Source: a virus
Virus record (IMG/VR): IMGVR_UViG_3300042887_000193
Location: 1-29,678 of that record
Reading direction: 5' to 3' (one strand)
Length of the DNA stretch: 29,678 bases
Part shown: positions 1,916 through 10,590 of the stretch, piece by piece
Layout of the letters: each line of letters starts with the position of its first letter
Position numbering within the stretch: the first letter of the stretch is position 1
Made by a program: the position numbers and the translations under genes
The notes under the pieces: generated by a model
The model's database searches: none
What the model saw: only the letters and a program-made list of their open reading frames with translations
Told to the model about the DNA's origin: nothing

Positions 1916-2212
1916 ATGAGTTCTACAGTAGAAAAGACTAGAAAAAAGACAGGCGGGCGTGTTGCAGGTGTGCCTAATAAGTCAACAGCCCTCGCTAGAG
2001 AGGCGATCGCTAAGTTCGTGGATGGTAACAGTCATATGCTACAAAAATGGCTTGATGAGATCGCTATGAACGAAAAGCTAGGGCCAAAGGTAGCATTTGA
2101 TTGCTTCATGCAAGTCGCTGAGTACCATGTACCCAAGCTGGCGAGAACAGAACACACAGGGGATGCAGACCAGCCCGTCAAGGTAGTTCACGAACACAAG
2201 TTTCTAGATTGA
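1916..2212 (+). CDS. terS: Terminase small subunit
   Basis: This 98-residue basic protein has the N-terminal signature KTGGRVAGVPNKSTALAREA, typical of phage small terminase proteins with a DNA-binding N-terminus (GGR..G.PNK). It is followed by a helical segment (about residues 35-75) and a charged C-terminus. TerS recognises the viral DNA packaging site and feeds it to the large subunit. The assignment rests on that motif and on its position directly before an unmistakable TerL, with which it shares a 3-base overlap (TTGA). GGTAAGGT before ATG 1916 is a modest Shine-Dalgarno. Which packaging strategy is used (pac or cos) cannot be told from the sequence. Confidence 0.85.
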   Translation: MSSTVEKTRKKTGGRVAGVPNKSTALAREAIAKFVDGNSHMLQKWLDEIAMNEKLGPKVAFDCFMQVAEYHVPKLARTEHTGDADQPVKVVHEHKFLD

Positions 2213-3558
2213 AAGAAGTAGTAATCAAATATGAGTATCCCTACAAGGCACGGGATGCGTTCATAGACTTTCACAAGCGTGACCAACGCTGGGCTGTACT
2301 GGTATGCCATAGACGAGCAGGAAAGACCGTAGCGACCATTGCTGACACGATCCGTAGGGCAGTCATGGAGAAAAAAGAGAATGCCCGTTACGCCTACATA
2401 GCACCGTACTACGCCCAAGCTAAGAACATTGCATGGGATTACTTACTCAAGTTTGCAGAGCCAGCCATAGTCAAGGCTAATCAATCTGAATTATGGATAG
2501 AGTTAGTCAATGGGGCTAAGATCAGACTATTTGGCGCAGACAATCCCGATGCTTTACGGGGTCTATACTTGGACGGTGTCGTTTTAGACGAATATGCTGA
2601 TATGAAAATGCGTCTGTGGGGAGAGATCGTTCGCCCATTGCTTACAGACCGCCAAGGCTGGGCTACCTTTATCGGTACACCTAAAGGACATAATGCTTTC
2701 TATGACATTTATAACGAAGCCCAAAAGAACCCGAACTGGTATGTCAAGACCCTAAGGGCAGACCAATCAGGATTACTGCCTGAAGCTGAACTCTTAGACG
2801 CACAACAGTCTATGTCAGCTAACCAGTACGAGCAGGAGTTCCTCTGTAGCTTTGAAGCCGCCATACTGGGCGCATTCTACGGGCAGGAGATGCGTAGGAT
2901 CACCGACCTTGAGCGTATTACCACGGTGGACTATGACCCCATGTTCCCTTGCCATACCGTTTGGGACTTGGGCTTTAATGATTCCACGGCTGTGATTTGG
3001 TTTCAGGTCGTATACGGTGAGATACGGGTGCTAGATCACCACTCTAGTAACGGTCAGGCTATTCCTTACTACACAGGCTTACTAGCCCAAAAAGAGGATC
3101 AATACGGTTACAAGTATGGCTATCACTACCTTCCCCATGACGCTAGGGCTAAAACCTTGGCGAGTGGTGGTAAGAGCATAATCGAACAATTTGCGACAAA
3201 AATTGACATAAATAAGCTAAAAATTGTTCCAAACCTATCACTTCAGGATGGAATACAAGCTACAAGACTTGCATTAACCCGTGCTTGGTTCGATAATAAG
3301 TGTGACGAACTAATTGAATGTTTGCGCCAATACCAAAGGGAGTGGGATGATGATAAGAAAGTATTTAGAGATCGCCCGAAGCACGATTGGACATCACACT
3401 CTAGCGATGCGATGCGCTATCTCAGCATCGTTTGGAAAGATGAAGATAGCCCTATCCTTAAAGATACAAGGGTTAAAGGCGTATCTATCGGGGAAAACGA
3501 AGTAACCCTAAACGAATTGTGGAAGCAAACACCTAAATCAACTTACAGGAGAATTTAA
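2209..3558 (+). CDS. terL: Terminase large subunit (ATPase and nuclease)
   Basis: This 449-residue packaging motor pumps DNA into the prohead and cuts it. The ATPase domain has a Walker A (HRRAGKT, residues 34-40), a Walker B (GVVLDE, 123-128, with catalytic E128) and a coupling motif (TFIGTPKG, 153-160). The C-terminal RNase H-like nuclease shows the acidic residues D253 and D258 (VWDLGFNDST) and D400 in HSSDAMRYL. All expected motifs are present and length is normal for the family. The start is TTG at 2209, overlapping the terS stop (TTGA), so translation is coupled. Its last bases carry the AGGAGAA Shine-Dalgarno of the next gene. Confidence 0.96.
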   Translation: MKEVVIKYEYPYKARDAFIDFHKRDQRWAVLVCHRRAGKTVATIADTIRRAVMEKKENARYAYIAPYYAQAKNIAWDYLLKFAEPAIVKANQSELWIELVNGAKIRLFGADNPDALRGLYLDGVVLDEYADMKMRLWGEIVRPLLTDRQGWATFIGTPKGHNAFYDIYNEAQKNPNWYVKTLRADQSGLLPEAELLDAQQSMSANQYEQEFLCSFEAAILGAFYGQEMRRITDLERITTVDYDPMFPCHTVWDLGFNDSTAVIWFQVVYGEIRVLDHHSSNGQAIPYYTGLLAQKEDQYGYKYGYHYLPHDARAKTLASGGKSIIEQFATKIDINKLKIVPNLSLQDGIQATRLALTRAWFDNKCDELIECLRQYQREWDDDKKVFRDRPKHDWTSHSSDAMRYLSIVWKDEDSPILKDTRVKGVSIGENEVTLNELWKQTPKSTYRRI

Positions 3559-8595: not shown

Positions 8596-8862
8596 ATGGC
8601 ACTTAAGCTCGCTGTTCAAACACAATTTGGCGTACCAGCCCCACAAGCCTACGCTAGAATCACTAACTTCTTTGGCACTAAAGACCAAATCCAAGTCCAA
8701 GTGGCTATTCATTATGATGAGTCGGCAAGGCATGGCAATATGGCTACAGTCAAAGAAAACGCACACTATATCAATATGGAAGATTTAAAGGGCGACTTAA
8801 TCCCAGCAATCTACGAGGTTCTAAAGACCTATAGCGATTACGAAGGTGCAGAGGACTGCTAG
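8596..8862 (+). CDS. Small conserved phage protein of unknown function
   Basis: This 88-residue soluble protein begins MALKLAVQTQFGVPAPQAYA, has a strand-rich first half (IQVQVAIHYDESARHG) and a helical C-terminus ending KTYSDYEGAEDC. The FGV.A.-Y.RI start and the 'LK....F.GAEDC' end match a type of small protein often found beside fibre or tail genes in phages; no function is established. The Shine-Dalgarno AAGGAG (from 8584) overlaps the stop of the fibre gene. Its TAG overlaps the GTG of the next gene by one base. A role in virion assembly is inferred from position only. Confidence 0.7.
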   Translation: MALKLAVQTQFGVPAPQAYARITNFFGTKDQIQVQVAIHYDESARHGNMATVKENAHYINMEDLKGDLIPAIYEVLKTYSDYEGAEDC

Positions 8863-9323
8863 TGTTCCAAACCGCATTTCAAGCCGATGCGTTCCAAAAC
8901 AATGCTTTCCAAGTATTTACTCCGCTTGGCGGGGATGATGGTGGCAGTTGGACAAGGGAAGAATTAAAAAGAGTCAAAAGGCTACATCAAAAGATTGCGG
9001 AACGACAACGCAAGTTAGAACAAGCAACCAAGGATGCTAACGCATTTCGTAAACAAGCATTTAAAGATCAAATTGATCCTGTTGCTAAAGTTAAGCAATC
9101 TAAAGTACAATCAATTCAAAAGGTTAAGGCTGATAAACCGTCAGACGATACACAAGAGTTACAGCGGTCTATAAGCTACCTTGAACGACAACGGGATAAC
9201 ATCCTTGCGGCAGTAGCTTACAGACAAAAGTACGCCCGTATACAAGCGGAACTACAGACCTTGGAAGCCAAACGCCTAGAGGAACTAGACGATGAGGAAT
9301 CCATATTAATACTTTTGCACTAG
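8862..9323 (+). CDS. Coiled-coil protein with AFQ repeats, unknown function
   Basis: A 153-residue protein opens with a tandem short repeat (MFQTAFQADAFQNNAFQV; four FQ-containing units in 18 residues), followed by GGDDGGSW. A long, highly charged helical region (about residues 33-148) follows, with Lys/Glu/Gln-rich heptads typical of a coiled coil. The AFQ-type N-terminus occurs on small phage proteins next to tail genes, perhaps as a docking segment; this is inference. The start is GTG at 8862, with GAGG at 8851-8854 upstream. The last 19 bases overlap the proposed true start of the glycosyltransferase gene, whose Shine-Dalgarno (GAGGA, 9294-9298) lies in this gene. Confidence 0.7.
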   Translation: MFQTAFQADAFQNNAFQVFTPLGGDDGGSWTREELKRVKRLHQKIAERQRKLEQATKDANAFRKQAFKDQIDPVAKVKQSKVQSIQKVKADKPSDDTQELQRSISYLERQRDNILAAVAYRQKYARIQAELQTLEAKRLEELDDEESILILLH

Positions 9324-10213
9324 ACGCTGACAGTCAATACAAACTAGCTTACGATCACCTACACGCTGGCAGATATGAGGCTGGCTTTCGGTTATTTGAG
9401 TACCGCTGGCATCCTGACATCATTGCCAAGCAAACCCAGCCCTACAAACCTGTTTTAACGATCCCTGTATGGCGTGGCGAGTCTCTACTAGGCAAGTCTA
9501 TTGTGGTACAGATGGAACAAGGCTATGGCGATGTATTGCAGTTTTATCGTTTTCTACCCGCCCTAAAGGTTATGGGGGCTAAAAAACTCATCGTCTTACA
9601 AGAATCCTCACTTCATTACCTCATTGGGCAGATGGAATGTATTGATCTTATTACCAATGCCACCGAAGTAGGGGAAGCGGTAGAAGCCGACTATTGGATT
9701 GGATCAATGTCGTTGCCATATTACATTTCAACCGCTATGCCTTATGTTAAAAGCCTTTTTCCAGTGACTAAAAAAAAGATAGTGGGTTCAGAAGGCTATT
9801 TAGAAGCTACGCCTAGCAATATCCCACCCAAAATAGGGGTAAATTGGGAAGCATCCAACAAAAGCCTGTACTACATTAAGTCAATAGACAGTCGAGAAAT
9901 GCTTGATTTAGTGGGCGATAACTGTTATTCCCTAAATCCTAAGACTGAAGGGCCATTTCACCCACTTCCTAACGATGGGTGGAAGAAAGATTGGCTAAAA
10001 ACCGCCCAACACATGAAGGCAATGAAGGGAATCGTCACCGTAGACACAGGCACAGCGCACTTAGCGGGCGCATTAGGCGTAAAGTGCGTGGTTTTACTAC
10101 CTAAAGAGGAATTTGTCTGCTGGAGATGGAAAAATGGCCGTTGGTATGACAGTATTTGCGTACTTAGACCCGAAGAATACGATCAATTACCTGACATCAT
10201 AAGGAGAATGTAA
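9305..10213 (+). CDS. GT9-like glycosyltransferase, proposed ATT start
   Basis: The protein resembles glycosyltransferase family 9 (ADP-heptose:LPS heptosyltransferase fold) fused to a short TPR-like N-terminus, as in many bacterial TPR-GT proteins. Diagnostic blocks are GRYEAGFRLFEYRWHP, VWRGESLLGKSIVVQMEQGY with GDVLQFYRFLP, KIGVNWEASNKS, and the nucleotide-sugar-site block GIVTVDTGTAHLAGALGVKC. An in-frame GTG at 9503 would discard the first two conserved blocks. Coding continues upstream to a stop at 9293-9295 with no ATG, GTG or TTG, so the best start is ATT at 9305, six bases after GAGGA (302 residues). It lies in the head operon and could glycosylate a virion protein or modify host surface glycan. 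Donor and acceptor are unknown. The gene may alternatively have lost its start codon by mutation. Confidence 0.8.
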   Translation: MNTFALDADSQYKLAYDHLHAGRYEAGFRLFEYRWHPDIIAKQTQPYKPVLTIPVWRGESLLGKSIVVQMEQGYGDVLQFYRFLPALKVMGAKKLIVLQESSLHYLIGQMECIDLITNATEVGEAVEADYWIGSMSLPYYISTAMPYVKSLFPVTKKKIVGSEGYLEATPSNIPPKIGVNWEASNKSLYYIKSIDSREMLDLVGDNCYSLNPKTEGPFHPLPNDGWKKDWLKTAQHMKAMKGIVTVDTGTAHLAGALGVKCVVLLPKEEFVCWRWKNGRWYDSICVLRPEEYDQLPDIIRRM

Positions 10214-10590
10214 TGATTTGCCCGAATTGTGGATATTCCCAAGAAAGTCATATAGAAACTAAGCAAACGGATGAAGAATTCTTTTTAGAGTGGTGGATAC
10301 CAACCATTGGTGAGGAAGCTGCTAGAGCGTCATGGCAAGATAAGGTCGCTATGAAGTCACGGGAAGCTCCGATGGTGATGCCCGATATTGAGGGGCACAT
10401 CTCTATGGCAGACGGCACGTGGGTTTCAAGTCGTTCTAAACACCGTGAGAACCTTAAACGCAATAACTGTGTTGAATTGGGTAACGATTTACCTACACAG
10501 CAAAAGACCCACGAATTTAGCCGTAAAGATCAAGAAGCCCGTAAACGGCAGATTGCTGAAATAGCGTATTCAAAACTTAACTATAGATAG
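10213..10590 (+). CDS. Conserved phage protein with N-terminal CxxC
   Basis: A 125-residue soluble protein starts MICPNCGYSQESH, one zinc-ribbon-like CxxC knuckle with no second CxxC pair. The middle is acidic and the conserved-looking core is MADGTWVSSRSKHRENLKRN followed by NCVELGND. The 'SRSKHRE.LKR..CVE.GN' block is widespread in phage proteins encoded near scaffold and capsid genes. There is no agreed function; a DNA- or head-assembly-associated role is inferred. It starts one base inside the stop of the glycosyltransferase gene, with AAGGAGAA upstream, so the two are co-translated. Confidence 0.75.
   Translation: MICPNCGYSQESHIETKQTDEEFFLEWWIPTIGEEAARASWQDKVAMKSREAPMVMPDIEGHISMADGTWVSSRSKHRENLKRNNCVELGNDLPTQQKTHEFSRKDQEARKRQIAEIAYSKLNYR

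Follow-up and report, generated by a model that had tools for sequence, protein, structure and literature searches.

An invariant ATT codon as the apparent start of a phage glycosyltransferase gene that overlaps its upstream neighbour

How is a phage protein made when its reading frame offers no canonical start codon ahead of a conserved N-terminal region? The question is raised by a predicted glycosyltransferase (GT) gene in a 29,678-nucleotide stretch of viral DNA (IMG/VR record IMGVR_UViG_3300042887_000193, positions 1 to 29,678; hereafter, the window). The GT frame is open from 9296 to the stop codon at 10211-10213, and the first ATG, GTG or TTG within it is GTG 9503. A sequence-only reading of the window had pointed out the openness of the frame to 9296, the lack of canonical starts before GTG 9503 and the GAGGA six bases before ATT 9305, all of which the sequence confirms. 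The features relevant to the analysis are as follows.

8862-9323, plus strand: upstream ORF, 153 amino acids, rich in charged residues; its C-terminus (...ELDDEESILILLH) overlaps the GT start
9293-9295, plus strand: in-frame TGA that closes the GT frame, inside gaTGAgg
9294-9297, plus strand: Shine-Dalgarno (SD)-like GAGG, 7 nt before ATT (GAGGA, 9294-9298, six bases before it)
9305-9307, plus strand: ATT, the proposed initiator codon, present in 204 of 204 overlapping loci
9305-10213, plus strand: TPR-GT9 glycosyltransferase gene read from ATT, 302 codons plus stop
9321-9323, plus strand: stop codon of the upstream gene, 16 nt 3' of the A of ATT
9503-9505, plus strand: GTG, an internal codon (Val67 counted from ATT 9305)
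10213-10590, plus strand: zinc-ribbon-like gene (MICPNCGY...), with its own ATG in the window

The glycosyltransferase and its N-terminal region

The gene product is a predicted GT9 (heptosyltransferase) glycosyltransferase with N-terminal TPR-like helices. The PF01075 profile matches all 45 family members tested (best E-value 1.1e-5), the window protein itself yielding a partial match of 21.7 bits, just below the cut-off of 22; a PDB sequence search gave no match. The AlphaFold model (pLDDT 78.5, pTM 0.73) contains two TPR-like helices, at residues 8-20 and 24-35, and a first strand at residues 64-69, and its best Foldseek matches are GT9/heptosyltransferases (3tov, WaaC and TibC; E-value 1.8e-5), with a TM-score of only about 0.45. 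In this model, initiation at GTG 9503, which codes for residue 67, would delete the TPR-like helices 8-35 along with half of the strand 64-69, and should therefore result in a broken fold.

The residues upstream of GTG 9503, which the sequence-only reading had taken for a hidden conserved N-terminus, indeed behave as real protein. Across 206 loci, the 24 codons that precede FEYRWH show 10.1, 4.0 and 28.7 changes at codon positions 1, 2 and 3, respectively, a third-position-dominated pattern like that of the whole gene (8.7, 3.7 and 31.6), which indicates that purifying selection on the GT is strong as far as its N-terminus. The first canonical codons of the relatives do not coincide with GTG 9503 but are found at varied internal places; given this variation and the predicted loss of part of the fold, a start at GTG 9503 or at any other internal canonical codon was rejected.

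Conservation of the ATT codon and the overlap with the preceding gene

In a first scan of viral contigs, we identified 80 loci with 73-99% identity; every locus with an intact region lacked a canonical start before the TPR-like motif and carried ATT at the equivalent codon. Further scans, including GT-independent queries with the upstream gene, brought the set to 206 distinct homologous loci. A scan of genome contigs yielded only one contig-edge fragment, and the annotated phage collection contained a single GT, distant (26% identity) and starting at an ATG of its own, and no relative of the upstream gene, the product of which has no match in Pfam or PHROGs. Two of the loci, L033 and L046, lie near opposite ends of one contig (IMGVR_UViG_3300028393_000135, 41003 bases), which has the upstream gene and GT in two non-identical copies; either the pair was truly duplicated or the assembly is chimeric or concatenated.

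The ATT codon is present in 204 of the 206 distinct loci and shows zero changes, counted by parsimony, on a GT gene tree with a total length of 20 substitutions per site; on the same tree, the codons immediately 5' and 3' of it changed 64 and 34 times, respectively, although these loci are metagenomic and related, such that the counts are not independent and parsimony corrects for kinship only in part. From the in-frame stop to the conserved N-terminus, no near-cognate codon other than ATT is common to all loci. That stop is TGA in 188 of the 204 loci and is replaced by CGA or AGA in 16. Canonical codons before FEYRWH are few among the relatives; they occur sporadically, within the conserved TPR region. 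A motif scan of the 204 loci detected GAGG-N7-ATT in 181 and AGGAG-N5 or AAGAGG-N4/N7 in 19; the SD is reduced to GAG only in three loci and to AGG only in one. Thus, ATT is more constant than the SD, a motif of moderate strength (GAGG). In the aligned set, GAGG is supplied by a GAG codon in 139 of 139 loci.

The GT is encoded in the -1 frame relative to the upstream gene, and its proposed start overlies the last codons of that gene (...GAT GAG GAA TCC ATA TTA ATA CTT TTG CAC TAG). The A of ATT is the synonymous third base of an upstream Leu, Ile or Val codon and is invariant. Both T's open an upstream Leu codon, which is TTA in 138 of the 139 loci of one set; for comparison, all but one of the conserved Leu columns of the GT show 17-34 exchanges between TT and CT as first bases. 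The Leu-rich hydrophobic tail that follows DDE in the upstream protein is itself conserved, including in loci without an overlapping gene, and constraint on the upstream gene itself could account for part of the ATT conservation. In 203 of the 204 loci, a change from ATT to ATG would write TGA in the upstream frame, within the conserved tail.

Together, these comparisons make it very probable that the GT is initiated, directly or in a coupled manner, at an SD-AUU site that is fixed across this phage lineage and in which AUU is kept by the overlap. Under this scenario, the initiator tRNA would decode AUU 9305-9307, and the GAGG 7 nt before it, which lies within the last codons of the upstream gene, would position the ribosome. 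RNA folding indicates only weak structure around the start. AUU initiation is weak in Escherichia coli, and AUU starts give lower expression that is sensitive to IF3, so that GT expression might likewise be low or IF3-sensitive. Ribosomes that terminate on the upstream gene, at its stop 16 nt beyond, probably assist, through termination-reinitiation or coupling. Such coupling is plausible because the upstream stop follows the A of ATT by 13 or 16 nt in all but one of the 204 loci, and E. coli ribosomes are known to reinitiate near stop codons (PMC2268962). We infer that AUU is maintained by the overlap with the upstream gene, a feature that the sequence-only reading does not mention, rather than by regulation: the start would lie in the -1 frame of conserved Leu-rich C-terminal codons, and AUU would be retained in preference to AUG because NTG followed by A at this position creates TGA and truncates the upstream protein.

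A separate region of the upstream ORF, 9081-9222 (most strongly 9096-9140), has nearly all synonymous sites frozen in 139 relatives, with at least 10 third positions showing zero changes (for example, Pro is always encoded by CCG). The frozen stretch, which two GT-less loci (L306 and L343) also have, contains a promoter-like TTGCTA-N18-TACAAT (9082-9111) followed by CAAGAGGTTAAAGCTGATATACCG, and has no match in Rfam. A hidden overlapping ORF was rejected as its cause, every other frame being interrupted and none conserved. Possibly, this stretch is a promoter or another cis element for the downstream head genes.

Natural controls and alternative explanations

Several loci provide natural controls. 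In one orthologous lineage (2 of the 206 distinct loci, observed on seven contigs; 55% identical to the window), the GT has a canonical ATG start, located behind AGGAGAAGG and after the upstream stop, and aligned five residues inside the ATT start; the old ATT site reads TTT. This lineage appears to locate the GT N-terminus independently, and because its start is beyond the upstream stop, it is free of the overlap constraint. Three GT-less loci (L306, L343 and L345) keep the Leu-rich tail of the upstream protein, lack GAGG-N7-ATT and have a next gene with a normal ATG; the controls without overlap amount to these three lineages only. In L343 and L345, the next gene is zinc-ribbon-like and is preceded by an SD plus ATG. 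In L306, the place of the GT immediately after the upstream gene is taken by an HNH-endonuclease-like gene that has its own ATG.

In three other loci (L167, L211 and L262), the GT is missing, and an orthologue of the zinc-ribbon-like gene, with no canonical start in its first 50 codons, is joined in frame to the same ATT; elsewhere, this gene starts at its own canonical codon (63 loci). Judging by these junctions, the ATT site serves a second gene in the three loci. The junction residues differ, which suggests that the joins were separate events. A broader reading, that the SD-AUU site is a selected, portable control element that sets a low, IF3-sensitive and coupled level of whichever gene follows, GT or zinc-ribbon-like, lineage-wide, appears to us possible but rather doubtful. 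In the relatives, the third positions of the last GT codons (10190-10215) are also unusually constant, apparently because these codons hold the SD and the overlapping TAATG start of the next gene.

Of the two explanations that the sequence-only reading had offered, a rare ATT start or an ATG recently lost, the former is strongly supported, whereas the latter, along with a sequencing error at base 9307, is refuted for all practical purposes: ATT is shared by the 204 loci from many independent metagenomes, no relative has ATG at this position, the nearest case being the ATG lineage described above, and nothing was found in favour of a loss. A more serious contender, albeit an unlikely one, is programmed -1 frameshifting towards the 3' end of the upstream gene, which would produce an upstream-GT fusion and in which ATT would be no start at all. 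The geometry fits, with the GT in the -1 frame and overlapping the upstream end in 204 loci, an SD-like motif (GAGG) lies ahead of the site, as it does in dnaX-type signals, and the zinc-ribbon swap is equally compatible with a fusion. However, a tandem slippery site between the SD and the upstream stop is found in none of the 139 loci tested, and a single-codon slip in only 5; the invariant A|TTA bases forbid proper re-pairing of the Leu-tRNA in the -1 frame; and there is no stable downstream structure (z-scores from -0.17 to 0.83 for 71-nt segments of six loci). Furthermore, judging by the orthologue whose ATG stands clear of the upstream gene, the protein does not need the fusion to be viable.

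Still less probable is that ATT is conserved solely for the sake of the upstream protein or mRNA, with the GT starting at some other, unrecognised codon or hardly made. The conservation of the upstream tail and the extreme synonymous conservation at 9081-9140 of the same gene are in line with such a need, but the loci share no other near-cognate codon, those without overlap retain the hydrophobic tail without the bases, and the purifying selection on the GT is strong up to its N-terminus. An additional candidate, the third-frame ATG in GATGAGG as the start of a leader peptide, was rejected: it is absent from the GATGACGAGG lineage, and its frame has no consistent end.

Comparison with known AUU starts and implications for annotation

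To our knowledge, AUU has been recognised as a start codon in only a handful of genes. The proposed initiation at AUU in the phage GT is closest in layout to that of orfB in the insertion sequence IS911. The orfB frame is -1 relative to orfA, which it overlaps, and its SD lies inside orfA; in addition, a slippery A6G motif with a structured stimulator gives rise to an OrfAB fusion. AUU initiation of orfB is attributed to Polard et al. 1991 and Prere et al. 2011, as cited in PMC4066793 and PMC9523058, and the structured stimulator is described in PMC5009743. In contrast to IS911, the phage locus has neither slippery motif nor stimulator, and the gene concerned is a glycosyltransferase (or zinc-ribbon-like).

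Like the phage GT as proposed here, infC, the gene for IF3, is a conserved gene with an AUU start, also seen by proteomics in Xanthomonas (PMC5559785; PMC5472188). The infC AUU serves IF3 autoregulation, whereas the likely cause of the phage AUU is the overlap with the upstream gene. Experimentally supported AUU starts include Borrelia pncA/BBE22, for which the shorter annotated start gives an incomplete protein (PMC13398362), and Yersinia pestis RcsD-Hpt (PMC10191623). These are single genes in single bacterial lineages, whereas the phage AUU start, predicted from sequence, is lineage-wide. Lineage-wide conservation of a non-canonical start is shared with Streptomyces sigR, which starts with GTC in 32 of 34 species and with GTT in the other two, and is repressed by IF3 (PMC5472188); sigR differs in its codon, in being a bacterial regulator and in that the regulatory reason has been demonstrated. 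In the literature searched, coverage of which was partial and gives only weak evidence of novelty, no phage gene was described as having a conserved AUU start.

The roughly 200 loci form a natural data set in which AUU is both the sole apparent start and invariant, and in which the ATG orthologue, the gene swaps and the non-overlap loci serve as controls. The question of what fixes a bad start codon thereby becomes testable, the suggested answer being its overlay on the tail of another gene. There is also a practical implication for annotation: gene finders limited to ATG, GTG and TTG would shorten the GT across the whole lineage; the loss, usually of 40-70 residues, would take away the TPR-like helices and, in some cases, the first catalytic-domain strand. 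Elsewhere in the window, the terminase-like gene at 2209-3558 has TTG as its listed start, which overlaps the end of the previous gene.
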